From Pythium myriotylum (Eukaryota > Oomycota > Peronosporomycetes > Pythiales > Pythiaceae), in contig JALJCQ010000013.1 in assembly GCA_023091665.1 (NCBI GenBank), positions 496,001-560,000 on the forward strand: 64,000 nt of DNA, read 5' to 3'. Position numbers and translations under genes: made by a program. A model generated the notes under the pieces. That model ran no database searches and was not told where the DNA came from. It worked only from the letters and a program-made list of their open reading frames with translations. This document shows positions 27,655-47,989 of the stretch, one piece after another; the stretch's first letter is position 1; each line of letters begins with the position of its first letter.

Positions 27655-27885
27655 TGTAGTAGGTCCAAGGTTCACCAACACAGTCACTAGGGAAGCTGGC
27701 GGCTTCCTTTGATCTCGTTGTCTATTGTAGAATGAATAGGAGCAACTCAATTCCTACTCTCTGTAACCCCGTTGGGGTACTCAAGTACCCCACGGGTCTG
27801 TTCTTATCGCCAGCCAGCTCAGCTGCGGGCACCAGCCCGCTGCACAGTGAGTGGGCAACGTCTTGGTCGTCCTCAGCCCGCTACA
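27655..27885 (-). repeat. Outer element 3' LTR
   Basis: 231-bp LTR, TGTAGTAGG...CCCGCTACA on the plus strand, flanked on the left by target duplication AAATC. Confidence 0.92.
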
Positions 27886-27917
27886 CCGCCCTTCCAAGAC
27901 TTGTCCACCACGAGTGT

Positions 27918-28673: not shown

Positions 28674-30169
28674 ACTGGTACATAGTACGTCCAGTCGCGG
28701 ATGTCAACCTTGTCCTCAAGACACATCGCCCGTAACACCTGCTTGATGTCTTTGTTCACTCTCTCCACCGACCCATTCACCCATGGTGAGTACGCCACGA
28801 TTAAGTTCTGCTCCGCACGCAGTCTCTGGCTGATCTCCTTCAATACCTCGTTCTTGAAATGCGAGGCGCTGTCGCTGATCCATACCCTCGGAGCGCCAAA
28901 CCTACTGTGCCAGTCCAGTATCGCTTCCGCTGCTACGGTGCTCGTGGGTGTCGCACATGGCACGAGCTCGCAGTAGTGGGTCGCGTCGTCCTTGAGCACC
29001 AAAAGGTAGGCGTAGTTCCCGTAAGACTTGCCGAGATGCACGAAATCCCAGTGGAGCGCCTCATTCCGTTCTTGGCTTCTGTAGGTTTCCCCCCATGGTC
29101 TGCGGACCATCTTCCCCCCTTTCACATGCTTGCAAAGCAAGCATTTGGCCAGGAAGGCGTCGACACGCTGCCGGAGGTTACCAATTTGGAATCGTCGCTG
29201 AAGCGCTGTCATCAGAGCGTCGCGACCTCTGTGCCCTTGTGGTCCACAGTGAGCGATCACAAGGAGCCGGTAGATAACGTCTTTCGCGCGATCTGGTATC
29301 CAGATACGATCCGCGTCACACAAGAGGCCGTGCTCATCCCGCTTCAATGACCTTGGGTGGTTCACTCCCTCAGCTTGCTGCGCCAACAAGATCGAGTTTA
29401 TTGTTGGCCACTCGAAATCATCAGCGTGGAGCGGCCGCATTCGTGGTTGACGCGTGGCAGCATCGGCGCCGCCATCCTCATCGTCATGCCCCGCCGCCCT
29501 TCTGCGCTTTCGTCGTAGTCGCTCGATCGCTACGCCACCATGTCGTGCTGTTCCTGCCCACCGAGACACCATATCGGCCCAAACGTTCTTCACTCCATCG
29601 ATATGTTCGATAGAATACCGGTACTCCATGAGCTTCATTGACCATCTCAACAACTTGCCTCTCACGTGTTTCTTCATCTCCTGTGCAGGAGCGAACACGT
29701 GGATCAAGTTCCGGTGGTCACAGAACATCCGAAAGCCCTTTGGCCGCATTAGCAAGTAGCTCAACTTGTCGCAAGCAGTCACGATTGGGTAAGCCTCCTT
29801 CTCGATCACGCTCCAGTTTCGCTGAGCGCCAGTGAACGATCCACCCATGCATATGAGAAGCTCATGCTGTTGCTCTGATACAGGGAGATCCACATTCCAC
29901 TCAGCCACTTGTGTCACAATCACCGACCAGCCCACGTCCGATGCGTCCGTCAACAGGCAGGTCTCCGCAGCGGGCTTCGGGAACGCCAACGTAGCTGCGT
30001 CCGCAAGCCTGCGCTTCACCTGCTCAAAAGCATCTTGTTCCTGTCGTGAGAGAGTGATTGGGATCTTTGTCCCCACGCGCTTGGTCCGCTTCTTGGACGT
30101 CGCCAACACCGCGTCCAACTTATCTTGCAGCGGTCGATGACCGAATTCCTCATCCAGTTTGTCGAGCAA
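28655..30169 (-). CDS. Outer element RNase H and integrase
   Basis: This frame covers the RNase H (LLTDASDVGWSV, IEKEAYPIVTAC and FCDHRNL carry the three acidic residues) and the integrase. The integrase has an HHCC zinc module (HCGPQGHRG ... CLLCK) and a D,D,E core (HWDFVHLG, WISDSASHF, NGSVERVNKD). It is out of frame with the reverse transcriptase upstream, with the shift near 30150, and with the chromo-like end downstream. The pol polyprotein must therefore once have been continuous. Confidence 0.88.
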   Translation of the reverse strand: MLDKLDEEFGHRPLQDKLDAVLATSKKRTKRVGTKIPITLSRQEQDAFEQVKRRLADAATLAFPKPAAETCLLTDASDVGWSVIVTQVAEWNVDLPVSEQQHELLICMGGSFTGAQRNWSVIEKEAYPIVTACDKLSYLLMRPKGFRMFCDHRNLIHVFAPAQEMKKHVRGKLLRWSMKLMEYRYSIEHIDGVKNVWADMVSRWAGTARHGGVAIERLRRKRRRAAGHDDEDGGADAATRQPRMRPLHADDFEWPTINSILLAQQAEGVNHPRSLKRDEHGLLCDADRIWIPDRAKDVIYRLLVIAHCGPQGHRGRDALMTALQRRFQIGNLRQRVDAFLAKCLLCKHVKGGKMVRRPWGETYRSQERNEALHWDFVHLGKSYGNYAYLLVLKDDATHYCELVPCATPTSTVAAEAILDWHSRFGAPRVWISDSASHFKNEVLKEISQRLRAEQNLIVAYSPWVNGSVERVNKDIKQVLRAMCLEDKVDIRDWTYYVPVCCRRV

Positions 30170-31533
30170 ATGAACTGCTGTAACTCTCCAGCGTTGCTCG
30201 GAACGGGTAGGTTCACCAGCGCCTCAATTCGCGCCGGGTCATGTCGTACCCCGTCGCCGTTGATAATCCGACTACACCACTTCACCTCCTCTTTGTAGAC
30301 CGATGACTTCGTCGCGCTCAACTTGAAACCAAACCGGTCGACTAGCCCAAACAACTCCTGCGATTTGTCTAGGTATGTGTTCACATCCTTCGCGTAGAGC
30401 AACAGGTCGTCGATCCACACTAACAGGTGCTCGTACAGCAGCGACGCAAAGCATCGCTCCATTGTCGCTTGGAAGTACAGAGCTGCATCGGAGCATCCCT
30501 GCGGCACTCGCCTGGGAGTGTAGATCTTCCTATGAGTCATGTACGAGAGGATCTCTTGCGATTCTTCATCGAGGGGCAGCTGCCAATAGCCCTTGATGAA
30601 GTCGAAAAGTCCGAAGCACACGCATCCCATCACCCGCTCGAGGTCCACGTCCAGGTTCGGCATCAAACCAGCAAGTGGCTCTACCTGGACGTTGGTTGGC
30701 TTGCAGTCGGTCGTCTGACGGTATTCACCGCCTGCCTTCCTGACCGGCAGCGCTGGACACGCCCACCTCGAGTTCAGGTTCTCGTACACCCAACCCAACT
30801 TGACCAACTGCCCATTAAAGTTCTCAAGGAACCGCTGCAGCTCAGGTGAGTACTTGCGTGCCTTGCTCTTGTATGGCACCGCGTTCTTCTTGAGCCTGAT
30901 CTTCAGTGGTTCGACTCTTGCAGGTGGGTCGTCACCCAGCTTCACCCTCCAGATATCATACATGCTGATCACAGTTCGCAAGCGCTCGATCTTTGCCACA
31001 GGAAAGCCCTCCTCGATCGCGCGCTGCACCATGTCCTCGATAGCCTTCCTGATCTCGTCGTCGTCACGAGCACCAGTCACCGTGGCGTCATCCTTCGTGT
31101 CATCATCATCATCATTTGATGGGCCTGCGAGCATCTCAAGCTGCCGCTCTACGTCGATACCAAGCATCGCTAGAACGTCCTTCCCCAACAGGAGCTCACC
31201 ACCTCCTTCGATTACCAAACACTCGACAGGCGACTGGATGTTCACCATACCGGCCGCCGTACGCAACGCCATCTTCACATTCACCGTCTCGGAAACACGC
31301 ATCGTCCGACCACCAGCCAGTTCACACACGATCGGCTGCTGTAAGAAGTTGACCTTGACAGATTCGTCGAGGGTCCTCAACTTACTAACATCCTTCTGGC
31401 CGATGCAGGACTTGTAAGCACCACTATCCGCACAATATGCAAGCTCCAGGACACCGTTCACAGTGACCTGAGGCTGATCGAGCGGTAGGCACTCCCTAAT
31501 CCTTCGGATCTTCGCGTTGCCTCCCTTCCTCAC
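30016..31533 (-). CDS. Outer element protease and reverse transcriptase
   Basis: The aspartic protease core is CADSGAYKSCIG with LLLGKDVLAMLGI as the second signature. The reverse transcriptase follows with GYWQLPLDEESQEI, VPQGCSDAALYFQ and the catalytic box WIDDLLLYA. The frame is lost after QQFICSTNWMRN, where other gypsy elements continue into the RNase H. The start overlaps the 3' end of gag by 38 nt in another frame, the usual arrangement for gag-pol frameshifting. Confidence 0.88.
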   Translation of the reverse strand: MRKGGNAKIRRIRECLPLDQPQVTVNGVLELAYCADSGAYKSCIGQKDVSKLRTLDESVKVNFLQQPIVCELAGGRTMRVSETVNVKMALRTAAGMVNIQSPVECLVIEGGGELLLGKDVLAMLGIDVERQLEMLAGPSNDDDDDTKDDATVTGARDDDEIRKAIEDMVQRAIEEGFPVAKIERLRTVISMYDIWRVKLGDDPPARVEPLKIRLKKNAVPYKSKARKYSPELQRFLENFNGQLVKLGWVYENLNSRWACPALPVRKAGGEYRQTTDCKPTNVQVEPLAGLMPNLDVDLERVMGCVCFGLFDFIKGYWQLPLDEESQEILSYMTHRKIYTPRRVPQGCSDAALYFQATMERCFASLLYEHLLVWIDDLLLYAKDVNTYLDKSQELFGLVDRFGFKLSATKSSVYKEEVKWCSRIINGDGVRHDPARIEALVNLPVPSNAGELQQFICSTNWMRNSVIDRCKISWTRCWRRPRSGPSAWGQRSQSLSHDRNKMLLSR

Positions 31534-32494
31534 GCTGTTTCCTCTTGGCAGCTCTCACCTTCGACTTAGCGCTCTTACTGAGCTTGGTGCAATTCATGAG
31601 CGAATGGCTGCCGCCGCAGTCGTAGCAACCATCGCTGTGAAGTACCCCGTCCCAGCTCGAGCCACCGTTATCCGTCTTTCTCGCCGCGGAGTCCCCGAAG
31701 GTCACTCGCTTCACGACACGCTTCTCATCACCGTCTTTCGACCCATGGACTTCGCTCCGAGACCGCGCACCACCACCTTTGCCGCCATTACGCAGTCGTT
31801 TGGCACTAGGTGAGTCACCATTATCTTCGCGTTGGCGCTTCACCTGGCGCAAAACTTGATCCTCCTTGGCTTGTTCCAGAGCCATACGAAGGACCAACTG
31901 GTACAGTGCAGGCACGTCACGCTTCGGGTTACCATCTTTGCCAAAGTCGATTTCATTCTTCACACGCTTCTTCAGCTTTTCTGGTAAGCACTTCACCAGA
32001 ATTTTGCACTTCTTCTCGTCGTTACCGTTGAACAGTGAGGCTAAACCGTTCGTCCGAATAATCGTGTTACAGGAGTGGAAGTAGTCGAGAACCTGTGATT
32101 TCACGTCGTTCGAACCCGTACCGAACTTGAGCTCTTTCTGAAACAGCCCCTCGATGTCCGGCATCGTCTGGTTCTTGAAGGTCTCAACCTCCGACTTGAT
32201 CCATTGCCACAGAAAGTCATCCGTGAGGTCGTCTTTGTCCATCCTCCACTCGATCTCGCAGAGTGTACCCAAGTACGCTTCGTCAAACGAGTTGCGCAGT
32301 GACACCATAAGTGAGTTCGGATCCCCACCCGTGTTCTTGCACTGCGCCCTAACCGCTTCTTCGTACTCGAACCGCAGATCCATCCACTTGGTCAGGTTCT
32401 CATGCGCCACTCGGTCCAGCTTGGGTGCGCCGATTGAGGTCAGCACGTACTGCGGCACCGTGGGGTGTCCAACAACACGCGGATGCATCGGCAC
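31496..32494 (-). CDS. Outer element Gag-like protein with zinc knuckle
   Basis: An open frame of 332 codons; the first in-frame ATG is three codons in, and an in-frame stop lies upstream at 32623-32621. It contains a capsid-like helical region and a zinc knuckle of variant spacing CYDCGGSHSLMNC (CX2CX3HX4C), followed by a basic tail. The inner element has inserted at 32728, upstream of this frame. A candidate ATG for the original Gag start lies on the other side of that insertion near 44417, apparently in a different frame, so the 5' part looks broken. Confidence 0.75.
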   Translation of the reverse strand: MPMHPRVVGHPTVPQYVLTSIGAPKLDRVAHENLTKWMDLRFEYEEAVRAQCKNTGGDPNSLMVSLRNSFDEAYLGTLCEIEWRMDKDDLTDDFLWQWIKSEVETFKNQTMPDIEGLFQKELKFGTGSNDVKSQVLDYFHSCNTIIRTNGLASLFNGNDEKKCKILVKCLPEKLKKRVKNEIDFGKDGNPKRDVPALYQLVLRMALEQAKEDQVLRQVKRQREDNGDSPSAKRLRNGGKGGGARSRSEVHGSKDGDEKRVVKRVTFGDSAARKTDNGGSSWDGVLHSDGCYDCGGSHSLMNCTKLSKSAKSKVRAAKRKQREEGRQREDPKD

Positions 32495-32528
32495 CGCCTC
32501 TCCAGTTCCACGCGTGAGCCGAGTCGCC

Positions 32529-32606
32529 GCTGCCGACGTCGTTTTGGACGCTTCTGATCGCTGCGGTGCTGCCGACGTCGTTTTGGACGCTTCTGATCGC
32601 TGCGGT
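32529..32606. repeat. 39-bp tandem duplication in 5' gag region of outer element
   Basis: Two perfect adjacent copies (32529-32567 and 32568-32606) of a 39-bp unit beginning GCTGCCGACGTCG. The length is a multiple of three. Confidence 0.9.
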
Positions 32607-32728
32607 AGCTCCTTGTGCCACTAGTACCACCACCAGCACCCGCTGCGGCTTCTGTCGCCGCTGCACCGGTCGCTACTACCGGTGCGGAGTCGCTTGTCGA
32701 ACTCTGGCGTGGCTGACGCGAGCGCAGC

Positions 32729-33579
32729 TGTGGTGATGCGGATTGAGAAAGAGAGGTCGCGGTCTCTCACCACCGTCTACCCCGTGGATCCGACGGTTAA
32801 ACCGTCCCGCAGGAGCTCCGGTTGGGGATCCAGAGGGCCCTAATGTCCCTCATTGTGGGTCCCGAGTCTCAGAAGGAAAGGCGAAGTTTAAGCTAGACTA
32901 GGCTAATTAGGCTAATATGTAGGGTACAGGTAGTAGGCGTAGGATAGGTGCTGGATCTCGTGTCTCATGGTCTGATTTTGTGTGGAACACCCGGATCCGG
33001 GGTTAAAATCGGATTTATGTGGACCACATAAGTTGGGTCCGGACACGTTCTGGCCGATAACAAACAAGTTGCGATTTTCCCCCCTCAAGCTCAAGTCCCC
33101 GGGCCAAGCGGCGAACAAGAGGGAAGGTCAGAGGCACGCGTCAGCTGCGGTCAAGGTCAGGAGAACCCAGCGCGCCCCCCGCCTCGTGCAGCTTCAACCC
33201 CCAAGTCCCGTGGGTGGCAAGCAGCCCACGTTAAAGTTCCAGTGTCCCGAGACACTGTGGGAAGGTCAAGGTCGTTTTCAAGGTCGGATCCAAGCCTCGC
33301 GGCGCGGATCCCGTGTCAAGTCCTGCCGGCCGCGCTACGCACCGGATCCAGGCCACGCCGCGCGTGTAACCGTTGCGGCGCGTCTCTTCCGCTCAAGGCT
33401 CAACGGATCTTGTCTTCTCCGCGCTTGCAACGCGGGATCTCGAGTCCACGGTCCCAGAACGGGTACAAGACCAAAGAACTGGGGCGTTTGTGTCCAGGGT
33501 GCGGTCGTTACCGAATCCTGCACAGACGCTGACGTGGGAAGCGCCCAGCAAGAGTAATTTTGCTGCCCGCTACACCACA
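32729..33579 (+). repeat. Inner element 5' LTR
   Basis: 851-bp LTR, apparently identical to 43527-44377; six GGATCC sites lie within it. Open frames inside it are duplicated in both LTRs and are not genes. Confidence 0.94.
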
Positions 33580-33641
33580 ACTGGAGCACGAGACCGGTTC
33601 TTGCGTTTTGGACCGTGTTCGTTCCGGATCCCTCAGTAACG

Positions 33642-35219
33642 ATGTCGTCTGAGGTGAAGATCAAGGTTGAGCCCGGAACTCTTCCACCCGACGTGGCTGG
33701 ATCCGTCGGTGTCGGAACTATTGCTAGATCCGCCAGTGGAGAGCGTCGGGGGGTGCTCGAAGCTGAACAAGAACCAAAGGTCAAGGTGGAGCATGACGCT
33801 GGCGAGCGCGCCGTTGAGCGCACTCTCAGCTTCAGTAGTGAGGAAACCAAGGCTGAAGATGTAATTCCCCCCAAGTCCAAGCAGATCTCCAAGCGGATCG
33901 AAGCCAAGAACACTCAGGCAGCCAAGCGTGCCGCGGATCGCCGGTCCAGTGCTCGCCAAGGTGCCTCAGAGGCTAGATCTGGTGATGGATCTGCTCAAGA
34001 GGTCGTAGACAACGTGGATCCAGGGCCTGAAGGTCCCTACGTCCCGGATCTGGTGTCTCCTTACAAGGCCACGCACTCATCTGTCATCATCTGGAACGCT
34101 GGTCAGCTTGCAAACCTCACGAAGTCGCACAAGGTCTTGAAGCCGCTCAGGATCCGGCTTCCTCCGAGGATCTGGGGCCCTGTGCCGAAGCCAGAGTTCG
34201 AGAACATCGTCGGAGAAGACCGTGATCTGGCCATGAGCTTCATCGTGCACACGCTTCTGTGTGGTGGCTTTGGTGTCAAGCAGTCGGATCTGCCGCTGAC
34301 CGCCGATGGGGCGCCGTACTACCACGCTTTCACGTTTGCCGAGCTTCGTGGCGTCGGTATGGCGGTGTTCAACGCGCTAGCCAACTTGGTTGGGTCGATT
34401 CTGTCGAACTTTACCCCTCGTGTGGCCGCCAGCCACGCTGGATCCGACCTGGGGTCTCTCACGGACCGCCTCGCTGAGGTTGCAGTGCAGGATCCGTACT
34501 CTACACCCGTCAAGATCGAGAATTCGCATGATCTCGACGTGGTCATGGAGTCTGTGCAGCGGATTCCCGCTCCAGAAGGCCGTCCGAAGGCTATTCGCGT
34601 GTCTACAGTCGAGGATCCGCGTGCTGCACGCCCGATGTTGCCAGGTCATACCCTGATCTCGGTCAAGTCGAAGGATCAAGTCGATCGTGAGAAGGAAGAG
34701 AAGCGGAGGTCGAAGCCCAAGAAGTCCAAGGCGAAGCCCAAGTACGAATCCGGATTTGGGTCCGACGACGACGGTGAAGACCCATACGACGAGATCTACC
34801 TCGGTCAAGACTCGGGTGATGAACGTTATCAAGCTCCCGTCATCCGTGCCGCGTCCACGATGGAGATCAAGAACTTCTCAGGACGTGACATGGATGCCGA
34901 GCGAGCCAAGGCTTGGATCCATCGTCTGTGCCGTAAGGGTCGTATGGACCGCCTCTCACCACGAGAGATGAGGGATCTCTTCTCGGATCGACTCACTGGA
35001 GGTGCTAAGAGCTGGTACCAACAGCTTCCACAGAAGATCACTCGCGACTGGTCTTCTACGGTCGACGAGTTCATGTATCAGTACTGTGAGATCGGCGTCA
35101 AGCCGGCCGAGCACTACTATACCATGACGCGGCGCGATGGCGAGTTGCCATTGAGTATCTCTACCGCCTCAATGTCGCTGCCAAGAAGGCTAAGGTTCAG
35201 ATTCGAGGCCGGATTGTGA
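33642..35219 (+). CDS. Inner element Gag, N-terminal part
   Basis: ATG at 33642. A charged, Lys/Glu-rich N-terminus precedes a retrotransposon Gag-like region ending in IKNFSGRDMDAERAKAWIHRL and WYQQLPQKITRDWSS. The frame is lost at about 35141: one missing base in GAGTTGCC moves the conserved continuation (EYLYRLNVAAKKAK) into the next frame. That frame is open through 35941. Confidence 0.85.
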   Translation: MSSEVKIKVEPGTLPPDVAGSVGVGTIARSASGERRGVLEAEQEPKVKVEHDAGERAVERTLSFSSEETKAEDVIPPKSKQISKRIEAKNTQAAKRAADRRSSARQGASEARSGDGSAQEVVDNVDPGPEGPYVPDLVSPYKATHSSVIIWNAGQLANLTKSHKVLKPLRIRLPPRIWGPVPKPEFENIVGEDRDLAMSFIVHTLLCGGFGVKQSDLPLTADGAPYYHAFTFAELRGVGMAVFNALANLVGSILSNFTPRVAASHAGSDLGSLTDRLAEVAVQDPYSTPVKIENSHDLDVVMESVQRIPAPEGRPKAIRVSTVEDPRAARPMLPGHTLISVKSKDQVDREKEEKRRSKPKKSKAKPKYESGFGSDDDGEDPYDEIYLGQDSGDERYQAPVIRAASTMEIKNFSGRDMDAERAKAWIHRLCRKGRMDRLSPREMRDLFSDRLTGGAKSWYQQLPQKITRDWSSTVDEFMYQYCEIGVKPAEHYYTMTRRDGELPLSISTASMSLPRRLRFRFEAGL

Positions 35220-35941
35220 CGGAAAAGGCTCATGTGGATCGCTTCGTTCGCTCGGTTGATGACGAAGATCTGGTGCGAAGCCTCTCTCTGCACCGGATCC
35301 GCTCGGTCGATGAGCTTGAAGACGCGTTGAAGGAGCTAGCACGCCATACTCGTCGTCCACAGGGGCGCGAGCGTGATTCCGACGCGCGGATCCCGGCTCA
35401 GAAGAACTTCGCATCGTCCAAGACGTCATATCCTGGTAAGAAGCCTGCCTCGGAGCCTGGATCCAAGGCTAGACCGATCCCTGTGAAGAGTCTACGATGG
35501 CCGCCAAAGGGGGCGACTGTTAGTCGCTCGGATCCTCGGAGCAGCGATAGTGAAGGCGAAGATCAAGGCGATTATGGGTCTGGTGACAGCGATGATGCTG
35601 GATCCAGCGACGAGGATCGTTATGAGGCTCGTCAGGTCGCTGTGGCCCAAGAATCTACCGATCCGAGCTCTCGCGGTCACGGTAGACCAAGATCCCCGTG
35701 CACGATTTGCGGATCCGAGCGCCACAGCGATGCCAACTGCTGGAAGAATCTCCGTTGTGATCGCTGCGATCGCATGGGTCATCCCTCGGATCGGTGCCGA
35801 GAAGTGTGCAGGGCTTGTGATCAAGTCCATGCGAAGGGAGAGTGCGCCCTCGTGGCCCTCTACAACAAGCTCGCCGCTTGGTACAACCCTTCACGCCATG
35901 CCGGACTTCTCCCACCTGAAGTCGAGAAGGCTATAAACTAG
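35216..35941 (+). CDS. Inner element Gag, C-terminal part with three zinc knuckles
   Basis: This frame continues Gag after the single-base loss. It carries an acidic stretch and three successive zinc knuckles: CTICGSERHSDANC and CDRCDRMGHPSDRC (both CX2CX4HX4C) and CRACDQVHAKGEC (CX2CX3HX4C). Three knuckles are more than the one or two usual in gypsy Gag. It ends at 35941, just before the protease frame. Confidence 0.85.
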   Translation: MTEKAHVDRFVRSVDDEDLVRSLSLHRIRSVDELEDALKELARHTRRPQGRERDSDARIPAQKNFASSKTSYPGKKPASEPGSKARPIPVKSLRWPPKGATVSRSDPRSSDSEGEDQGDYGSGDSDDAGSSDEDRYEARQVAVAQESTDPSSRGHGRPRSPCTICGSERHSDANCWKNLRCDRCDRMGHPSDRCREVCRACDQVHAKGECALVALYNKLAAWYNPSRHAGLLPPEVEKAIN

Positions 35942-35966
35942 AACGCTCGCTAGCTCGGGGGCTAGT

Positions 35967-37016
35967 GTGCGCCGAGCGTTCACCCGTGATGTAGGCAAGA
36001 AGGGGACAGTTAAAGCTAATACATTTGTTGACGCTGAGACTGGTGTGGTGGAAGTCAAGTCGGATCCAAGTCCAGTGGCGGACGAGTTCGATCGATCGTC
36101 TGTGAAGAAGGTCATGAAGATCCAACTTCGTCCTCACGAGAGGAAAGGATGGTGGAAGTCGGTGAAACCGGAGCAATGGACCTATCGGGCTAAAGCTCTG
36201 GCCAAGATCAACGATACAGGGGCGAAGGTGCTGTTCGATACAGGGGCGGAAGTCTCTCTCATCAGTTCTAGCTTTGCGCACAAGCTAGGAGTGAAGATCG
36301 ACAGTTCCCAAGCCGAGGTATGTGAAGGAATCGGTGGATCCCAGTACCAGACCGACGGATCCTGTGTGGTGAAGCTGACCTTGGCCAATGAGCTCGTCTA
36401 CGAACTCACGCTCTTGGCTGGTCCGATGGGAGGACAGGATCTGATCCTGGGTCTAGACTTCATGACAAGGGCAGCCGTTCGTGTTGATGCCGCAGACCGA
36501 TCCGTTTGTCTGCCTGGTGATGTCTATGTGCGATTCGAGGGGCGTCGACAGCTCTTCAGTTCGCATGCGAGGCCGATCTATCCGGATTCTGTTCGGATTT
36601 TGGATGTTGGGGCGTCAGTCGACGTCAAAGCAGGTCGTCACAACGATCAGGTTCTCTGGATTCGGCGAGATCCAACGTGGGTTACGTCTATTGTGCACTC
36701 ACAGGCGGGAATTCCCATTATCGTTCGCGTAACGAACGTTTCTGACAGAAGGATCCGACTCAGTACGCTCGATTTGGTCGGAGTGTGGATGTCGAGGGGT
36801 TCTGTGCCGAGGAAGCCGGGTTTTGTCATGGATGGGTCGCGGAGGAGTGCTGAGTGGAAGAATTTTGCATATTCTGCTACTCAGGATCACGACGAAGAGG
36901 ATTTACCGATGGAATCGGTGGATACTACTCCCATGGTCGAAAGACGCGAGTATCCTGCTCCTAAGAGTATTCTACGACGTGATCCTAACCAGATCCGCGT
37001 TCTGGGTCGCCAATAG
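35967..37016 (+). CDS. Inner element aspartic protease
   Basis: The core VLFDTGAEVSLIS and the second signature DLILGLDFM identify a retropepsin-like protease. The frame is open from before 35967 and ends in TAG at 37014-37016. The same frame then continues open for about 60 codons before a shift near 37185, so the TAG may be a single disabling mutation. The protease is one frame away from Gag, consistent with gag-pol frameshifting. Confidence 0.85.
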   Translation: MRRAFTRDVGKKGTVKANTFVDAETGVVEVKSDPSPVADEFDRSSVKKVMKIQLRPHERKGWWKSVKPEQWTYRAKALAKINDTGAKVLFDTGAEVSLISSSFAHKLGVKIDSSQAEVCEGIGGSQYQTDGSCVVKLTLANELVYELTLLAGPMGGQDLILGLDFMTRAAVRVDAADRSVCLPGDVYVRFEGRRQLFSSHARPIYPDSVRILDVGASVDVKAGRHNDQVLWIRRDPTWVTSIVHSQAGIPIIVRVTNVSDRRIRLSTLDLVGVWMSRGSVPRKPGFVMDGSRRSAEWKNFAYSATQDHDEEDLPMESVDTTPMVERREYPAPKSILRRDPNQIRVLGRQ

Positions 37017-37198
37017 AAGGTTCAAGACGAAGGAGAGGCCGGTTCTGGGCTTTCGACGCAGTCAATATTGTCGAAGCAGTCGAATCCGACGTCTGTCAAC
37101 TCGGATCTCCAACGTAGTAACCAGGATCTGGACCTAGAAGCCGCAAAAGTCGCTTCAAGAATTGATTCTGTGGTCGACAGGGACGGTTTGACTCGGAC

Positions 37199-40100
37199 GT
37201 GGATCTCGGGGTTCGCAGTGTGGATCCATCGCTAGCGGGTGTTTCTTCCACTCCATATGGTCGTTTGTGTGCTTTGGGCACTGACTCGGTGGTCAAAGGG
37301 GTGTACTCGGCTGGGTCTGGCTGTACGCGAAAGGAAAACACCACAAATCCATCGCAGAGTATTTCTAGTGCGACCTCAGAGACTCGAATCCCACCTCACG
37401 TCGAAGATTCTGCCGTTGGTGCTGCTATTCTTACGGTTTCTGATCCTCGGAATGACTTAGCGTCGCATTCGGGCTCGGATCCCCGCCTCAGAGCGATGAA
37501 TCGGCCTTTTGGTGGAGTTAACGTGGTGAAAAATATTCAGATCCCTGTCAAGAGGGTCGATTTTGCCGTCAAGGATGCTCATCTAGCTGGATCCTGCGTG
37601 GATCTTGCATCTAGTGTCTCTAAGACTTCGCATGAGTATGTTCCTGCTACCTCAGAAGACCAAATCCATGCTCAGGAGGAAGATCCATCCCTCAAATACG
37701 TTGATTTGGCTATTTCCGAGCTCCAAGGGGCCTCATCTGCAATTTCCGGTTCGGATCCCACTGTTCCAGCCGTAGTTCATCATCATGCAGGTGTTGTTCG
37801 GTCTTCTAGTGCTCAGATCCATGATCCAGACGGTGATTTTATTGCTTGTGACGTTCAAGAGGGTGTATCGGCTGTAAATCAGGTGTCCAGCGGTGTTGAT
37901 TTGCTCAAAAAGTGCTTAAGATCGACTTTGGAGGCTGAATTCCCCGTTTCCGGTGTGGACCCACACATTCGAGAGACTCAGCAATCGGATCCCAACGTTC
38001 AGAATAATATTTCGGTGCTTAACTGTGTGGATCCGGCGTTTTGCAACTCAGATCTGTCGTCTTATGACTTAATCGAGGCCTCCGAGGTCCCACGTATCAT
38101 GCTTGTGTCGAAAGTAACGGACCTCGACCTGGATCTGGCCGGCGCAGTTGATGAAGTAGTGATTATCGAAGGTTCTGATCCTCTGGTGGAGGATTTAGAA
38201 GCAGGGTTTGCAGTTTTACCGGATATCGGTCATGGATCCGATGGTGAGAGCCGAAATCCGCTCCGAAAGGAAGATCTCAACGTCGGAGACCCGTCTGTCA
38301 GCTCTAAGGAGAATCTGGATCGTCTCAGGGATATTATTTGGCGTAGATCCCAGGTTCTGATGGGCAAAGGCGATGCTATGCCGCCGGCAGCCAACGGCGT
38401 CATCTGTGATATTGATGTCGGCAATGCCAAGCCAGTGGCTCAGCCTGTACGCAAGGTCCGCCCAGAATTTCTGGAGAAGCTGTTTAAGTTGCTCAAAGGT
38501 CTGCTTAAGAATGGTCTGATCCGTCCTTCGAAGTCTCCGTGGGCCTCGCCGATCGTAATCATCAAGAAGAAGAACGGAGAGATTCGACTCTGTATTGACT
38601 ACCGGGTAGTCAACGCCCTGACGGTACTCATGGTGCATCCGATGCCTCTAGTCTCGGATCTGCTCGAAAACCTTGAAGGAATGCTGTGGTTTTGCTCTCT
38701 AGACATGGCTAGTGGTTTTTGGGTCGTTCGGATGACGCCACGGGCTCAGAAGATCTCAGCATTCATTACTCCCTTCGGTTTGTATGAGTGGACCCGTATG
38801 CCCTTCGGTTTAAAGAATGCACCTCAGATCTACCAGCGGATTGTCGACAATGTGGTCTATAATACCTTCAGGATCTCTAATAATGGCGGGTCTGAGGTTT
38901 ACCCAGCGGATCCTGTCGATAGAAGCCCGGATCCCATCGGATCCCACTCCTCGGACGTGTTTGAGGACGGAAAGGTCGCGGATCCAAGCGAAGGATCGCT
39001 CATGCAGCGCCGATCCTACATTGATGACTTCTTGTTGCCGGCGAAGACCTGGATCCAGCTCTGTGACCTTGTTGAACGCTTTCTGGACGCGTGTGTCTAT
39101 TGGAACCTGTCTATCAGTGTCGAGAAGAGTGTCTGGGGCGTTCCCGTGGTAGAATACCTCGGACACAAAGTGGATCCTCAAGGAATCCTTCCAAATCTCA
39201 AGGATCCCTTTGCGCTGAAGGATCTGGCGTTCCCGACAACTCTACGTGCTATGCAGTCCTTCCTGGGAAGTGTCAACTACTATAGTCGCTTTGTGGACGA
39301 CTTCGCGACGGTTGCGGCCGTCCTCTATGCGTGGAAACCCTTATTGAGCTCGAATGGACATTTATCCGGTCAATTACAACGTCAAGATCAATATAGACCT
39401 CGGTCGATATCGGATCCGGCACCTGTCACAGGTTCTGTAACCGTCGGGGGTCCGGGATCTGTCACAGATCCTGAAACTGTCACGGATCTGGATCCGAGAT
39501 CCATGGAAAGATCCCTGCAGCAGGAGAAGGCGGAACGTGCTTTCGAGATGCTCAAACGACGAATCCTTGAGGCTCCAAGGCTGAGGCACTTTGATCCTGC
39601 CCGTGATGTGGTCGTCGCTGTGTACGCGACAAAATGGTCCATCTCAGGTGCAGTACTTCAGGCTTACGACGATGTGTACGAACCTGTCCGTTTCACTAGT
39701 CGCGTGACCAAGCAGCACGAACGAAACTACTCGGAGGCCGAGGGCGAGATCCTCGCCCTGCTCAGAGTCCTCGATGTCTGCTATAATATGCTTGCTGGTA
39801 GGAAGATCCGCGTGCTCACAGCGTCGTCGACGCTGGGTTGGCTCTGGAAGACCAAGGGTCTACAGGGCCGACTAGCTATATGGGCCGCTATGTTATCAGG
39901 CTGGTCATTGGAAATCCAGAAGGGGGTCGAAGAGATCCACGGCTTTCTAGGACTTGTCGCCACAGGATCCTCTCCTAGAGACCACATGAATGAAGCTCTC
40001 GAGGCCATCTCGCCGCTCACGGTCAAGCGGAGGCCACGGATCCAGGTCCCAGTGCCGACCCTGCCGTCAGATACAAGAGTGATTGTCGCTAGCTTTGATG

Positions 40101-41569
40101 GCTCGGCGAGATCTAAGCGAAAGGGCGGCTCCTGTAGTGCGATCCTGTGGAAGTTCCCTGAGTGGACAGTGATTCTGAGTGCGTCCGAGTATTTCGACGA
40201 CATCACAGTGAATGAGGCCGAGTATCGTGGATTTTTGCTCGTCCACAAGATGGCTACAGAGCTGAACCTCAAGGATCCAGTCATTTGTGGTGACTCAAAG
40301 CTGGTAGTCAGTCAGATCCGAGGGGAGATGGAGTGTCGAGCCCCAGGACTACAGTTGCTCCATGCAGAGGCCTGCAAAAAGGTCCAGACCCTGAGACGGT
40401 GCGACTTAGTACACGTGAAGAGAGAGTGGAACGCCGCGGCGGATCTACTTGCTACAAGGGCTCTACAGACGCAAAGTGGGACGGATACAGTGGATCCAGA
40501 GCTGAGAAAGGACCTAGAGACAGTGAATCGTCTCGGTGAGGTGATCCAAGTGGCAGATCCGGTGTCTGATGTGAACAGAGTGTATGCGGTCCAAACGAGA
40601 CGACAGAAACACCGGGAAATGAGGGATCTAAGCACTGCTGACGGGGATCCGGCTCAGGATCGACGCGTGAATGAGGTTCACAACCCTGGAATGATTGCGA
40701 AGCTGCGTATCGACCGGATCCGCGTTGCACAAGAGGAAGAAGTGTGGATCCAAGACCTAAAACTCTTTCTAGCCGGAGATCTGACTCGATTGGACAGTGC
40801 AAGGCTCCAGAGGTGTGCTAAGGTAGCAGATGACTTCGAAGTTGACGAGGATGGACTACTGTATTACGTGAGCCGCCCGAAACGTCACGGATCCGAGGAT
40901 CTAGACGTGCGACTGGTAATTCCGACTACGTTAATCGACGATGTGCTCCACCACTACCACACGAGTGTTGAGGGAGGTCACCAAGGAGTCACTCGTACCT
41001 ATGCGAAGATCCGACGGTACTGTTATTGGAGATCTATGTACAGGGATGTACAGCAGTATGTGGGGAGCTGTCAAGACTGTCAGACAGGCAAGGGAAGGCC
41101 GTGGATCCGAGGTCCATCACCTGGGAATGTACAAGCTACGTATCCTTTTCAAGTAATTGCAATGGATCACGTCCCCTCTATGCCCAAGAGTCATCGAGGC
41201 AACACAGAACTGCTACTGTGGGTGGATCTATTCTCCGGATACGTGATCGCGAAGGCAAATAGCAGCAGATCCGCCCCGGTGGTGGCTGAGGCGTACGAAG
41301 AGTGTGTGTTTCGAAGATTCGGAGCGAGTGAATGTATCCGCCACGATCGAGAACCCGGATTCATGGCTGAATTCTTTGCAGCCTTCAACAAGCTGATGGG
41401 CCAGCGCCAGACGGATCCGCGGAGAGGATGGTACAGACACTTACAAGGGCACTACGTATGTACGTGGAGGACGAAGGACAGCGAGACTGGGATGATTACG
41501 CCGAGCGATTGGTGTTTGCCATCAACACGTCGCACGATCGGATCCGTAACGAAACGCCGTTTTACTTGA
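37199..41569 (+). CDS. Inner element RT, dual RNase H and integrase polyprotein
   Basis: About 1450 codons. The first ~380 residues are low-complexity and rich in SDP/VDP. The RT has LIRPSKSPWASPIVIIKKK, MPFGLKNAPQIYQ and YIDD near 39017, with an unusual insert of about 60 residues before YIDD. The first RNase H-like domain (39.6-39.9 kb) has lost two acidic residues (VYATKWS for the DAS box, LTASSTL for TDH). A second, RNase HI-like domain (40.08-40.47 kb) is intact: SFDGSA, NEAEYRG, GDSKLV, WNAAADLLA. The integrase has HH-CC (HHYHTSVEGGHQG, CQDC) and the first two catalytic Asp. The frame breaks near 41410, before the catalytic Glu. Confidence 0.9.
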   Translation: MDLGVRSVDPSLAGVSSTPYGRLCALGTDSVVKGVYSAGSGCTRKENTTNPSQSISSATSETRIPPHVEDSAVGAAILTVSDPRNDLASHSGSDPRLRAMNRPFGGVNVVKNIQIPVKRVDFAVKDAHLAGSCVDLASSVSKTSHEYVPATSEDQIHAQEEDPSLKYVDLAISELQGASSAISGSDPTVPAVVHHHAGVVRSSSAQIHDPDGDFIACDVQEGVSAVNQVSSGVDLLKKCLRSTLEAEFPVSGVDPHIRETQQSDPNVQNNISVLNCVDPAFCNSDLSSYDLIEASEVPRIMLVSKVTDLDLDLAGAVDEVVIIEGSDPLVEDLEAGFAVLPDIGHGSDGESRNPLRKEDLNVGDPSVSSKENLDRLRDIIWRRSQVLMGKGDAMPPAANGVICDIDVGNAKPVAQPVRKVRPEFLEKLFKLLKGLLKNGLIRPSKSPWASPIVIIKKKNGEIRLCIDYRVVNALTVLMVHPMPLVSDLLENLEGMLWFCSLDMASGFWVVRMTPRAQKISAFITPFGLYEWTRMPFGLKNAPQIYQRIVDNVVYNTFRISNNGGSEVYPADPVDRSPDPIGSHSSDVFEDGKVADPSEGSLMQRRSYIDDFLLPAKTWIQLCDLVERFLDACVYWNLSISVEKSVWGVPVVEYLGHKVDPQGILPNLKDPFALKDLAFPTTLRAMQSFLGSVNYYSRFVDDFATVAAVLYAWKPLLSSNGHLSGQLQRQDQYRPRSISDPAPVTGSVTVGGPGSVTDPETVTDLDPRSMERSLQQEKAERAFEMLKRRILEAPRLRHFDPARDVVVAVYATKWSISGAVLQAYDDVYEPVRFTSRVTKQHERNYSEAEGEILALLRVLDVCYNMLAGRKIRVLTASSTLGWLWKTKGLQGRLAIWAAMLSGWSLEIQKGVEEIHGFLGLVATGSSPRDHMNEALEAISPLTVKRRPRIQVPVPTLPSDTRVIVASFDGSARSKRKGGSCSAILWKFPEWTVILSASEYFDDITVNEAEYRGFLLVHKMATELNLKDPVICGDSKLVVSQIRGEMECRAPGLQLLHAEACKKVQTLRRCDLVHVKREWNAAADLLATRALQTQSGTDTVDPELRKDLETVNRLGEVIQVADPVSDVNRVYAVQTRRQKHREMRDLSTADGDPAQDRRVNEVHNPGMIAKLRIDRIRVAQEEEVWIQDLKLFLAGDLTRLDSARLQRCAKVADDFEVDEDGLLYYVSRPKRHGSEDLDVRLVIPTTLIDDVLHHYHTSVEGGHQGVTRTYAKIRRYCYWRSMYRDVQQYVGSCQDCQTGKGRPWIRGPSPGNVQATYPFQVIAMDHVPSMPKSHRGNTELLLWVDLFSGYVIAKANSSRSAPVVAEAYEECVFRRFGASECIRHDREPGFMAEFFAAFNKLMGQRQTDPRRGWYRHLQGHYVCTWRTKDSETGMITPSDWCLPSTRRTIGSVTKRRFT

Positions 41570-42303
41570 TCCACGGCTGGGATCCAAAGACTACGTTGGA
41601 GAGCACGCTGCTGTGTGGCAGTACAGAGACCCAGGACCTGGATCCACGACGATGGAGGTTCCGGATTCAACGACAGTACACTTATGCGCGCCGTGAGGCC
41701 AACGCCAGGATCCAAGCTGCACAAGCCGAGAGAGCAGACAGGGCGAACGCTGACGTGACGGTACATCCTCTGGAGGTCGGATCTCAAGTGTGGCTGTATA
41801 TTGAACGAGTTAAGGAGGGTTTGGCAAGGAAATTAGCTCACAAGTGGCACGAACCCTTCCGTGTGTGCGAGATCCGAGACGGCTTCATGTATAAGCTCGA
41901 GATTGACGGATCCGGCTACCAATTGTCACCGTGGGTACATGTGTCGCGTCTAAAACCTTGTCGGGAAGCTCCAATGAGACCTCAAGTGCGGATCCGTGTA
42001 CCAGAAGACCAGAGGTTCGATTTCGACGAGGCTCTTCTGCCAGAGGACAGTTTCGAGCCAGATCCGGAGGATGGAATGTACGAAGTGGAAGAACTGTTGG
42101 ATCGGCGTGTTGTTAGACCAAGGACAAGGAACGCACGGAGTTACGTCGAGTTCCACGTCAAGTGGAAAGGGTATGATGATCCGACGTGGGTTCGTGAGGA
42201 GGATCTGAACTGCGGAGGCCTGATCTACGATTTTAATCGTCGGGAACGTGCTCGTAATCGGTTTCAGATGATGCAGTCGACCGAGGAGCCGTCGGTGGGG
42301 TAG
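41428..42303 (+). CDS. Inner element integrase C-terminus and chromodomain
   Basis: This frame resumes the integrase; the frame is open slightly upstream, where AER just before MVQTLTRALRMYV supplies the catalytic Glu. The usual YRPQANG segment is missing at the junction, so a small deletion accompanied the frameshift. Then come the GPY/F-like region (FRVCEIRDGFMYKLEI) and a canonical chromodomain (YEVEELLDRR...FHVKWKGYDDPTWVREEDL). Chromodomains of this class bind methylated histone H3 and steer insertion. Confidence 0.9.
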   Translation: MVQTLTRALRMYVEDEGQRDWDDYAERLVFAINTSHDRIRNETPFYLIHGWDPKTTLESTLLCGSTETQDLDPRRWRFRIQRQYTYARREANARIQAAQAERADRANADVTVHPLEVGSQVWLYIERVKEGLARKLAHKWHEPFRVCEIRDGFMYKLEIDGSGYQLSPWVHVSRLKPCREAPMRPQVRIRVPEDQRFDFDEALLPEDSFEPDPEDGMYEVEELLDRRVVRPRTRNARSYVEFHVKWKGYDDPTWVREEDLNCGGLIYDFNRRERARNRFQMMQSTEEPSVG

Positions 42304-43526
42304 ATCCGCGAGGATCCATGGGGTCTGAGAGGGCCCTTGACTTTTGTGTGCACATGGGAAGAGCAGAAGTCAGAATGTTGAAGAAGCATGTGTATGTATA
42401 TGCATATGAAGTGTCGTATGGGGAATCGTACTGGATCTACAAGTCGAAGTGGTGCTAGCAGCTAGATCCGACGCAGAGAGGTTGAGATCAGTGAATTTCA
42501 TGGCCGATCCAGGGGAAGGGACGACGACAGCCGCGGATCCAAGGCAAGACGTGATAAGTTGCGAGGATCCAACGCGAGGAGACAAGATGAGACCAGGTCT
42601 GCGGAGATACGGCTGGGGACGGATGGAATACGGCCAAGTTGACTCGACAACGGCATGCAGAGTGAGAATCCGCAGGAAGACGGCCTCAGGAGCGTGGATC
42701 CAAAGAGATGAAGGGTGAACACGGCGTGTGAAGTAAGAATCGACAAGAACCAAAGCCGAAGAGTGAAGATCCGTCGCTAAGGTGTCAAGGCAAGCGAAAG
42801 TCGTGCCGATTGAAGACTAAGGACGTGTGTTGTGGATTACACAGCCTCACAGCGGACGATGCGACGAGAATCAACGAATCGACTCGACGGCTTGGTCCAC
42901 GGTGCTGCTTCTGCTGTCAGAGCCGCTGCCTTCGTCGTTGTTGGGCTATGTAGCGTCAAGATCTGGATCCAACGCGTCAACCGCGCAACCTGAGTAGCAT
43001 CTACGCGAACGCTTGCAGATTCTGGTGCGGCCGATGCAAGCTACGCCTCAAGGGTGTGGATCTGGCCTACCCGTTCACGGACAAGACGGAGTCGACGGTC
43101 TGCTGCATCCTGCAAGTCCCCAACCGAGCGCATGAAGATCTGCTGCGCTGCGTCGTGAGCCTGATGCACCGTGAAGACGTGGCGACGAAGAGCTTCGTGT
43201 CGAGCATCGTAGAACTGTGCGAACTGTGCGAAGGAAGCTCCAGGAGGAGGATCCGCGCCGCCAGCGACGCAGTCCGGGCAGATCAACGAAGCAACGCTGC
43301 CGGCGTCTTGAGTTGATGCGGCAGGCGGAGGAGGCGAAGGTTCCGGACCTGGCAGTAAGCGTGGAGCCCCACGGTCTCTTCCTGGCGTTCGAGGAGGCGG
43401 ATCTTGCGCCGGCGGTGTGCTCGAAGGCGCTGGAGGTGGCGGATCCGACATGTGCGCGGGTGCGCCGGCCGATTGAAGAATGGAGCAAGGTCGACGCGCT
43501 CGTTGTGCACCAACCTTGGGGGCGGA
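42304..43526. other. Inner element 3' non-coding segment
   Basis: A 1.2-kb stretch between the end of pol and the 3' LTR with no sense-strand protein. It keeps the GGATCC enrichment (about seven sites) and contains an antisense ORF at its right end. Confidence 0.6.
43041..43451 (-). CDS. Antisense ORF in the 3' region of the inner element
   Basis: A 136-codon ATG-initiated frame opposite to gag-pol. The N-terminal half is Pro-rich (MSDPPPPAPSSTPPAQDPPP...). The second half looks helical (ARHEALRRHVFTVHQAHD..., GDLQDAADRRLRLVRERVG) and has a CPDC motif. Some large plant gypsy elements carry antisense ORFs in this position. No family is recognised and expression is unknown; the sense strand also has an open frame here, so GC-rich chance remains possible. 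Confidence 0.4.
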   Translation of the reverse strand: MSDPPPPAPSSTPPAQDPPPRTPGRDRGAPRLLPGPEPSPPPPAASTQDAGSVASLICPDCVAGGADPPPGASFAQFAQFYDARHEALRRHVFTVHQAHDAAQQIFMRSVGDLQDAADRRLRLVRERVGQIHTLEA

Positions 43527-44377
43527 TGTGGTGATGCGGATTGAGAAAGAGAGGTCGCGGTCTCTCACCACCGTCTACCCCGTGGATCCGACGGTTAAAC
43601 CGTCCCGCAGGAGCTCCGGTTGGGGATCCAGAGGGCCCTAATGTCCCTCATTGTGGGTCCCGAGTCTCAGAAGGAAAGGCGAAGTTTAAGCTAGACTAGG
43701 CTAATTAGGCTAATATGTAGGGTACAGGTAGTAGGCGTAGGATAGGTGCTGGATCTCGTGTCTCATGGTCTGATTTTGTGTGGAACACCCGGATCCGGGG
43801 TTAAAATCGGATTTATGTGGACCACATAAGTTGGGTCCGGACACGTTCTGGCCGATAACAAACAAGTTGCGATTTTCCCCCCTCAAGCTCAAGTCCCCGG
43901 GCCAAGCGGCGAACAAGAGGGAAGGTCAGAGGCACGCGTCAGCTGCGGTCAAGGTCAGGAGAACCCAGCGCGCCCCCCGCCTCGTGCAGCTTCAACCCCC
44001 AAGTCCCGTGGGTGGCAAGCAGCCCACGTTAAAGTTCCAGTGTCCCGAGACACTGTGGGAAGGTCAAGGTCGTTTTCAAGGTCGGATCCAAGCCTCGCGG
44101 CGCGGATCCCGTGTCAAGTCCTGCCGGCCGCGCTACGCACCGGATCCAGGCCACGCCGCGCGTGTAACCGTTGCGGCGCGTCTCTTCCGCTCAAGGCTCA
44201 ACGGATCTTGTCTTCTCCGCGCTTGCAACGCGGGATCTCGAGTCCACGGTCCCAGAACGGGTACAAGACCAAAGAACTGGGGCGTTTGTGTCCAGGGTGC
44301 GGTCGTTACCGAATCCTGCACAGACGCTGACGTGGGAAGCGCCCAGCAAGAGTAATTTTGCTGCCCGCTACACCACA
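43527..44377 (+). repeat. Inner element 3' LTR
   Basis: 851-bp LTR matching 32729-33579 without a difference I could see; followed by target duplication CAGC. Confidence 0.94.
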
Positions 44378-44503
44378 CAGCGTACGCCCAGAGGTCACAC
44401 TGGTCGTCGAGCTAGCCATGGTTTAGCGTCGACGGTCTTCGCTTGATCGATCTTCTTGACGAGCCTTGGTAGTTGCACACCGGCAAACCACTAAAGCTAG
44501 CTT

Positions 44504-44734
44504 TGTAGTAGGTCCAAGGTTCACCAACACAGTCACTAGGGAAGCTGGCGGCTTCCTTTGATCCCGTTGTCTATTGTAGAATGAATAGGAGCAACTCAAT
44601 TCCTACTCTCTGTAACCCCGTTGGGGTACTCAAGTACCCCACGGGTCTGTTCTTATCGCCAGCCAGCTCAGCTGCGGGCACCAGCCCGCTGCACAGTGAG
44701 TGGGCAACGTCTTGGTCGTCCTCAGCCCACTACA
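44504..44734 (-). repeat. Outer element 5' LTR
   Basis: 231-bp LTR matching 27655-27885 except for about two substitutions (GATCCCG for GATCTCG, and CCCACTACA for CCCGCTACA at the end); flanked on the right by target duplication AAATC. Confidence 0.92.
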
Positions 44735-47435: not shown

Positions 47436-47464
47436 GCAAAACCCCACCGACGGTGGGGTTTTGC
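47436..47464. repeat. 29-bp palindrome
   Basis: Perfect 14-bp arms around one central base: GCAAAACCCCACCG, then A, then its reverse complement. It abuts the first foldback unit. Confidence 0.92.
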
Positions 47465-47799
47465 GATCTCGACACGAGACATCAAGTGAGGTCTGTCGAC
47501 CACGGGGTTGATGGCCACGTTTCGCCACGAGCGAGGCCAGAAACAGTCATTCTGACGGTGGGCCACCGTCAGAATGACATGGGCGATCTCGACACGAGAC
47601 ATCAAGTGAGGTCTGTCGACCACGGGGTTGATGGCCACGTTTCGCCACGAGCGAGGCCAGAAACAGTCATTCTGACGGTGGGCCACCGTCAGAATGACTG
47701 TTTCTGTCAGAATGACTGTTTCTGGCCTCGCTCGTGGCGAAACGTGGCCATCAACCCCGTGGTCGACAGACCTCACTTGATGTCTCGTGTCGAGATCGC
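47463..47799. repeat. Tandem plus inverted 116-bp foldback units
   Basis: Two direct copies of a 116-bp unit (47463-47578 and 47583-47698) are followed, after 7 bp, by an inverted partial copy (47706-47799). Each direct copy ends in its own short inverted repeat (GTCATTCTGACGGTGG ... complement). The arrangement would form a long hairpin in single-stranded DNA or RNA. Confidence 0.9.
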
Positions 47800-47989
47800 C
47801 CATGTGATCACGGAGCCATGTCGAATACTAATACAGCCGATTGCCAACAAGAAAAATACATGTATTATCTCGATGTCTACCTCGCTCCTACCCCCGTCCT
47901 TTGTCCAGTACTGGCGATCATCGTTCCAGTTTCCAAGGACACAGTTGACGCGAATGTCGTCAGCGGCCACGGCCTACGACAAAACCCCT

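Follow-up and report, generated by a model that had tools for sequence, protein, structure and literature searches.

A GGATCC-saturated Chronos-like retrotransposon of Pythium myriotylum with a 10.15-bp nucleosome-type rhythm

Results

The stretch analyzed here (hereafter, the window) comprises 64,000 nucleotides of Pythium myriotylum, at positions 496,001 to 560,000 of contig JALJCQ010000013.1 (assembly GCA_023091665.1), and harbors at 32729-44377 a long terminal repeat (LTR) retrotransposon of 11.65 kb, nested in a second gypsy element whose 231-bp repeats are located at 27655-27885 and 44504-44734. By its proteins the nested element is an ordinary Chronos-like retrotransposon, but by its DNA it is unusual, being saturated with the palindrome GGATCC, whose copies are phased at 10.15 bp and accompanied by a nucleosome-type rhythm of WW (both bases A or T) and SS (both bases G or C) dinucleotides. 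This phasing and rhythm constitute the main feature of the element, which was overlooked in a preliminary description made from the letters of the window.

Between the LTRs, the Ty3/Gypsy order of protease, reverse transcriptase (RT), ribonuclease H (RNase H), and integrase is present (Table 1). The coding part of this copy is divided into five overlapping open reading frames (ORFs) in different frames, through damage or frameshifting, and in the original RNase H the expected first D is missing from the translation (as judged by eye only). The element is young. No known sequence-specific DNA-binding domain was found in the ORFs scanned against Pfam, and no homologue of the gag-like ORF was found at E <= 0.001 among 7998 candidates scored. 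The best-scoring relatives of a 501-residue RT-RNase H query (best 120 of 1591 matches) were Phytophthora, Peronospora, or unnamed metagenome proteins, ~50-53% identical to it, and none was confirmed in viral contigs. Since aligned relatives also carry a variable insert before the YIDD motif (seen in the consensus), the ~60-residue insert that the preliminary description had listed among spacer-like expansions is not peculiar to this element. The Chronos group consists of oomycete Ty3/Gypsy elements with protease, RT, an original and a second, aRNH-type RNase H, integrase, and chromodomain (PMC5348765); by its domain set, with a putative aRNH subtype of the second RNase H, the present element fits a Chronos-like retrotransposon. 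In contrast, neither GGATCC saturation nor a 10-bp rhythm was met in the available part of that paper, where no search aimed at them was made (PMC5348765).

Table 1. Features of the GGATCC-rich element (positions in the window).
Feature	Coordinates	Strand	Remarks
Target-site duplication CAGC	32725-32728; second copy 44378-44381	+	Read by eye
5' LTR	32729-33579	+	851 bp, TG..CA, 6 GGATCC, 100% identical to 3' LTR
gag-like ORF	33558-35219	+	First ATG near 33642; Retrotrans_gag E 0.011, below cut-off
ORF with zinc-knuckle-like CCHC motifs	35090-35941	+	Motifs by eye; Pfam zf-CCHC_4 only E 0.17
Aspartic protease	36201-36461	+	PF13650, PF08284, PF13975
Pre-RT spacer	37166-38400	+	7 GGATCC; strongest 10.15-bp rhythm, z 21.5 over 1235 bp
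Reverse transcriptase	38561-39172	+	Profile match
Original RNase H, apparently degenerate	39524-39898	+	PF17917, PF17919; residues by eye
Second RNase H (RVT_3 type)	40094-40462	+	PF13456, E 5.7e-12; D-E-D-D residues by eye
Integrase zinc-binding domain and start of integrase core	40919-41401	+	PF17921, PF00665 (core below Pfam cut-off)
Chromodomain at pol C-terminus	42079-42243	+	PF00385 (Chromo), E 7.4e-9
3' non-coding part	42304-43526	+	7 GGATCC; rhythm z 11.0
3' LTR	43527-44377	+	851 bp, 6 GGATCC

GGATCC occurs exactly 69 times in the element and 16 times in the rest of the window. Over one LTR and the internal part (10,798 bp), 63 sites were counted where a first-order Markov model, computed with one LTR only, predicts 4.8; GGATCC is the top 6-mer (z 26.6). 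The variants GGATCT (28 sites, 4.8 expected), AGATCC (24, 4.6), and AGATCT (13, 4.6) are also raised, almost equally on both strands, and the pentamers GGATC and GATCC reach 113 and 109 in the element. Summed from the 6-mer table, RGATCY (R, purine; Y, pyrimidine) totals 128 against ~19 expected, and GATC outside RGATCY is without enrichment (57 observed, ~62 expected). No other palindrome is comparably raised, AGATCT being the next. The preferred context is YGGATCCR, with Y preceding 49 of the 63 sites and R following 47, and the symmetry together with the graded RGATCY variants fits a palindromic site. Elsewhere in the window, counts are near expectation: 1 in the outer gypsy element at 27655-32728 (0.9 expected), 7 in the left flank (6.9), and 8 in the right flank (4.5). 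The sites lie in the LTRs, in the 3' non-coding part, and in all three codon frames, with 13 of the 49 ORF-assigned sites reading GS, 23 xDP, and 13 xIx. On the number of sites (given there as ~69), the outlying rank of the hexamer, the commonness of its variants, its distribution over LTRs, frames, and non-coding DNA, and the absence of an excess outside the element, the preliminary description was accurate. Its further claim that the sites are densest in spacers fails, because density varies little over the element (between 4.8 and 7.2 per kb, depending on the region), the LTR, RT, and integrase stretches matching the pre-RT spacer.

Synonymous shuffling, with protein and codon usage fixed, reduced the sites of the pol frame from 26 to 8.3 +- 2.3, and a clear excess was also seen in the 35141-35938 segment (6 versus 0.9). 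A weaker excess was obtained for gag (7 versus 2.8), protease (4 versus 1.7), and the last segment (6 versus 2.4), in which the largest shuffled counts equal or exceed those observed. Selection had been proposed to act on nucleotides and not on protein; the former part is upheld by the pol frame and by the sites in non-coding DNA, and the latter has to be softened, since DP is found 25 times in the pol frame against 6.1 expected and the protein sequence thus contributes too. A purely protein-level cause is ruled out by the shuffles of both site count and rhythm (see below). The period of A-form helices is ~11. An RNA-level motif is disfavored by the near-equal GGATCT and AGATCC and by the 10.14-bp period given below, which is not that of the A-form.

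For pair distances of 8-160 bp, the spectrum of GGATCC spacings, taken from 2.5 to 25 bp, has its maximum at 10.15 bp, and none of 3000 sets in which each site was moved by up to 20 bp reached this peak. The fitted period is 10.14 bp, with a bootstrap over pairs, which are not independent, of 10.09-10.19. The mean cosine at 10.15 bp is 0.86 at 8-55 bp, 0.58 at 56-105 bp, and 0.62 at 106-155 bp, so phasing is clear to ~155 bp; farther out, values are 0.24-0.40 to 305 bp and -0.03 to -0.26 beyond 355 bp. With a period of 10.5 bp, the mean cosine for 106-155 bp is -0.53. Sorted, the successive spacings begin with 10, 20, 21, 21, 30, 30, 30, 38, 40, 40, 41, 42, 50, 60, 68, 70, 71, 71, 71, 71, 73, and 73 bp. 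In the CCHC ORF, GGATCC lies at 35388, 35459, 35530, and 35600 (71, 71, and 70 bp apart), and in the RT, at 38908, 38929, 38939, 38980, and 39051 (offsets of 0, 21, 31, 72, and 143 bp). RGATCY sites show the same 10.15-bp peak.

Once GATC is masked, WW around the sites follows the phase of the site centre (cos z 11.4, sin z -0.2), to which SS runs opposite (-8.4). When only GGATCC is masked, AA/TT, AT, and TA have their maxima at this phase, and the maximum of GC is shifted by half a turn. In nucleosomal DNA, WW lies at minor grooves turned toward the histones (PMC6735720), and the pattern of the element equals the known nucleosomal rule, being ~10 bp periodic with WW and SS in antiphase. The WW-SS autocorrelation reaches z 25.2 in the element, compared with 1.6 in the outer element, 2.8 in the left flank, and 4.9 in the right flank, the last sitting at 10.45 bp. 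Masking of GATC gives 25.7, so the rhythm is independent of GATC. These z values assume independence and are approximate, the real controls being synonymous shuffles and other families. The amplitude, initially 0.035, has dropped to 0.018 by 161-211 bp and is 0.005 in the next bin. In 1-kb windows, z rises up to 22.3 in the element and is at most 4.9 outside it; by region, the pre-RT spacer and the 3' non-coding part (Table 1) are followed by 35100-37166 (10.5), RT (9.4), gag (8.5), 40300-41470 (6.4), and LTR (5.9).

Synonymous shuffling lowered the rhythm z from 19.3 to 3.3 +- 1.7 in pol, from 8.3 to 0.3 +- 1.4 in the gag part at 33630-35140, from 10.0 to 0.5 in the protease ORF, and from 2.8 to -0.7 in the 35141-35938 segment, and the integrase-chromodomain segment had no rhythm to lose. 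The rhythm is thus written largely through synonymous codons. It does not explain GGATCC, since a phase-aware Markov model predicts 3.3-5.4 sites against the 63 observed. With all GATC masked, 50 of the 63 site centres lie <=2 bp from the local WW phase, compared with 39% of all positions, and the mean cosine of all 69 sites to this phase is 0.57. Other palindromes leaning in phase, with small counts, are GAATTC (4 in, 0 out) and GCTAGC (5 in, 1 out). Other copies carry GGATCC at 14 positions where the window copy does not (either gained there or lost in the window copy; two are LTR duplicates of two others), with a mean cosine to the local WW phase of 0.36. Among the 12 distinct positions, too few to rely on, those <=1 bp from the phase were 4 of 6 shared by at least two insertions (33035, 37957, 42666, and 43058 in phase; 39509 and 43339 out of phase) and 2 of 6 found in a single insertion.

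Conservation was assessed among family copies with hits on both strands; the copies are related, so the counts are not independent. Alignment of 20 LTR loci to the LTR of the window element showed differences at 8/690 site bases (1.2%) and at 550/15,674 other bases (3.5%), and all six sites are kept in 15 of the 18 loci with six alignable sites. Two loci of ~91% identity (L030 and L031) keep 6/6 sites and have two further sites each, and L070 keeps 12 of 14 gag-side sites at 94% identity. Changes private to one insertion comprise 24 site losses and 7 gains (of 649), compared with 5 losses and 6 gains (of 231) among changes shared by several insertions, a pattern compatible with selection on copies that are active and decay of those that are not. 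An LTR-derived array was also observed on contig C9 (C9:1960382-2006852; L022-L029), with LTR pieces at 97% over 129-851; eight places are among the matches listed, five of them in one orientation at intervals of ~2.1 kb and the remaining three in the opposite one.

In the genome examined (58.7 Mb in 55 contigs), 28 other gypsy loci (L042-L069), a sample of gypsy families among the matches listed, form seven clusters. In the largest, a weaker 10.2-bp rhythm was detected in L043, L044, L046, L050, L058, L059, and L062 (z 5.6-7.3), with lower values in L064 (3.7), L045 (3.0), and L042 (2.3) and none in L048, L049, L052, and L055 (-0.5 to 0.8). On synonymous shuffling, the ORF rhythms of L043, L046, and L062 (6.2, 7.0, and 9.2) fell to 1.0-1.4, the largest of 200 shuffles (6.9) exceeding the observed value in L043; the L058 ORF (3.3 versus 1.6 +- 1.7) is not clearly different from its shuffles. 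L067 is borderline (z 3.6; ORF 4.2 versus -0.1 +- 1.3, largest shuffle 5.0), and no clear rhythm was seen in the clusters of L047, L057, L065, L066, and L069. Each of L042-L064 holds 0 to 2 GGATCC. L072, of the sister cluster, likewise has a weaker 10.2-bp rhythm, strongest in ~1.5 kb, and no GGATCC excess. Comparison of the RT phase with that of the window element gave mixed values, with cos z 1.9-4.1 for L043, L046, L062, and L072, but also 3.6 for the rhythmless L052 and -1.2 and -1.4 for L047 and L053. Genome-wide, GGATCC triplet clusters occur at 40 places versus 3 for the reversed pattern; by coordinates, 31 of the 40 belong to the window-element family or its LTR-derived array and 9 lie elsewhere. 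GGATCC saturation is specific to this family among the families sampled. Two loci outside the family (C17:651278 and C17:664340) have GGATCC triplets at 12-bp spacing, not multiples of 10.15 bp. Another gypsy relative, L065 (C30:2177500-2183500), holds 25 ACGGCT and 24 GACGGC in 6 kb with period-3 spacing, perhaps a coding repeat.

For other species, a protein-level proxy of GGATCC (GS, DP, or [RWG]I[RQPH]) could be scored in 42 homologues among the 120. Two Phytophthora fragariaefolia proteins, P0050 and P0076, which look like one family and were picked after the fact, are rich in DP (22 versus 6.8 and 16 versus 6.2), in spacers and linkers, and at protein level only their proxy spacing is close to 10 bp (p 0.0055 and 0.03 by jitter). 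The protein of the window element gave p 0.012 and a peak of 10.35 by the same proxy. Other values speak against generality: P0117 and P0045 lack the phase despite being rich in DP (p 0.66 and 0.17), the peak of P0004 (p 0.04) lies at 12.2 bp, the top phase score belongs to P0046, which shows no DP excess, and the homologues average 0.51 (standard deviation 1.1). GGATCC-bearing relatives may exist in Phytophthora, which these translations offer as a lead only.

Regarding other features, an antisense frame of 136 aa lies upstream of the 3' LTR (43041-43448, minus strand); it has no Pfam match, is 92-98.5% identical in three other copies, and is partly missing in two. GGATCC as integration target was rejected, the target duplication of the window copy being CAGC (one copy only). 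Beyond the outer element, at 47463-47808 of the window, two perfect 120-bp tandem copies are followed by an inverted copy, a hairpin-capable arrangement with 103-nt arms that are 99% complementary.

Discussion

The reading that we favor, with a probability of about 0.55, is that a nucleosome-wrapping code is under selection in this element and that the palindrome is shown, major groove outwards, to a putative DNA-binding protein. A binding site had already been proposed for GGATCC and is a possible role. Two layers would be superposed. The first would be a rotational code, with A/T-rich steps every 10.15 bp and G/C-rich steps half a turn away, imposed largely via synonymous codons and non-coding bases and presumably wrapped on histones. 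In the second, GGATCC (in the context YGGATCCR, with weaker RGATCY) would mostly be placed with its central AT where the minor groove faces the histones, and the major groove of such a site would point outward and be readable on the nucleosome surface, as suggested by its phase and the WW rule. A putative dimeric sequence-specific protein, of the host or of the element, would read these outward sites along the integrated element. The likely effect, and the least supported step, would be that the copy is kept open or transcribable, in an anti-silencing role like that of VANC (see below) or a pioneer-factor-like one; sites and rhythm would be kept by selection on active copies and would decay in inactive ones. 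A bolder version, which we advance only tentatively, extends nucleosome display along most of the element and sees in the dozens of identical palindromes a multivalent array on which a dedicated self-recognition (anti-silencing) protein would land.

Several observations weigh against this reading. There is no clear rhythm in 39400-40300 (z 1.0) and 41471-42303 (z 1.2), phase borders are unevenly spaced, the phasing of GGATCC turns negative at 306-355 bp (-0.42), and for GATC outside GGATCC the phasing is not significant when all periods are considered (p 0.097). AAAA occurs 14 times per 10.8 kb in the element versus 38-43 in the host flanks, but the outer element has 8.5. Regarding conservation, L016 keeps 4/6 LTR sites and L021 and L032 5/6, with 2/3 and 1/4 in the older fragments L034 and L071; moreover, the copies are related, and the abundance of sites may alone suffice for private changes to strike intact ones. 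On the rhythm, private changes have an effect of -0.031 +- 0.057, and in the plus-strand-hit set of -0.059 +- 0.076, compared with -0.145 +- 0.069 for random placement. Finally, part of the sister cluster has a weaker rhythm without GGATCC, so that rhythm and palindrome are separable.

This separability, the strong WW/SS rhythm that persists with GATC masked, and the in-phase lean of GAATTC and GCTAGC, in small counts, would suit selection for wrapping alone, with GGATCC merely the best bending word and no protein reader. We consider this doubtful, given that the phase-aware model yields only 3-5 sites against 63 and that other palindromes are not comparably raised. The rhythm could otherwise have been written by mutational feedback, through position-dependent damage and repair in fixed nucleosomes, and nucleosome-dependent mutation periodicity is indeed documented (PMC8228248); such a process should touch host DNA and most families, but among the sequences examined a strong rhythm is confined to one family, with a weaker one in part of the sister cluster. 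Moreover, it does not predict a single hexamer, and private changes lose GGATCC more often than they gain it (24 versus 7), leaving this explanation improbable.

Histone-wrapped DNA has a period of ~10.2 bp and free B-DNA one of ~10.5 bp. The fitted 10.14 bp lies nearer the former, which speaks against a non-histone protein (Gag or capsid, or integrase) that would wrap or compact the complementary DNA and bind the palindrome, as does the agreement of the WW/SS pattern with the nucleosome rule (PMC6735720). Such packing would accommodate an element that is copied into double-stranded DNA and carries the rhythm over most of its length, as well as a gag-like ORF without homologue, and we judge it very improbable. 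A slim chance is given to an N6-methyladenine (6mA) methyltransferase that would modify nucleosome-exposed RGATCY sites as a mark working in favor of the element or against it. GATC forms the core of the sites, and 6mA is present in Phytophthora, whose enzymes have been tested at GATC in vitro (PMC6211444), but GATC outside RGATCY is not enriched and the genome holds no PF02086 match, other 6mA enzyme families being outside this search. The same two findings disfavor a Dam-type target, one form of the methylation target (GATC core) suggested in the preliminary description. Least credible is the spread of GGATCC by short-repeat copying (slippage, gene conversion, or insertion), the self-propagating repeat of that description, to which the recurrence of some spacings (71 bp four times) might point; flanks of different sites are about as unlike each other as random flanks (mean identity 0.267 versus 0.257), no tandem repeat was reported inside the element, and the three printed 70-71-bp intervals are mutually unlike.

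The favored reading, of a wrapping code with outward-facing palindromes, has partial parallels in known systems. Periodic An/Tn Clusters (PATCs) of Caenorhabditis elegans have a period of ~10 bp. These non-coding sequences can prevent transgene silencing (PMC7725773), and they share with the element a periodic A/T pattern, AA/TT dinucleotides being phased here; in contrast, coding DNA of the element carries the rhythm, GGATCC is the key word, and A or T runs of four or five bases occur less often than in either host flank. In VANDAL transposons of Arabidopsis, a short motif is likewise far denser in one transposon family than elsewhere, and its arrays are read by VANC, a sequence-specific anti-silencing protein (PMC5735166). 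VANC21 motifs form same-orientation arrays, mainly in non-coding DNA, that spread by tandem repeat formation (PMC5735166), whereas the present palindrome spans coding and non-coding DNA, is helically phased, and bears no trace of repeat copying. The rotational setting of a retroelement is also thought to expose p53 sites on Alu nucleosomes (PMC6735720); Alu measures ~300 bp (PMC8228248), compared with an 11.65-kb autonomous-type element with 69 sites. A literature search by titles and abstract openings found no paper on such an element. To our knowledge, no other long protein-coding stretch has so strong a nucleosome-type rhythm.

Conclusion

If the favored reading is true, a mobile element would have evolved its own chromatin wrapping via synonymous sites and would display on it a recognition word, linking silencing escape, the positioning of nucleosomes, and codon choice within a single system that can be tested. 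The element would furthermore be a source of natural long nucleosome-positioning DNA, and the biology of oomycete transposons would gain a concrete target, the GGATCC binder.

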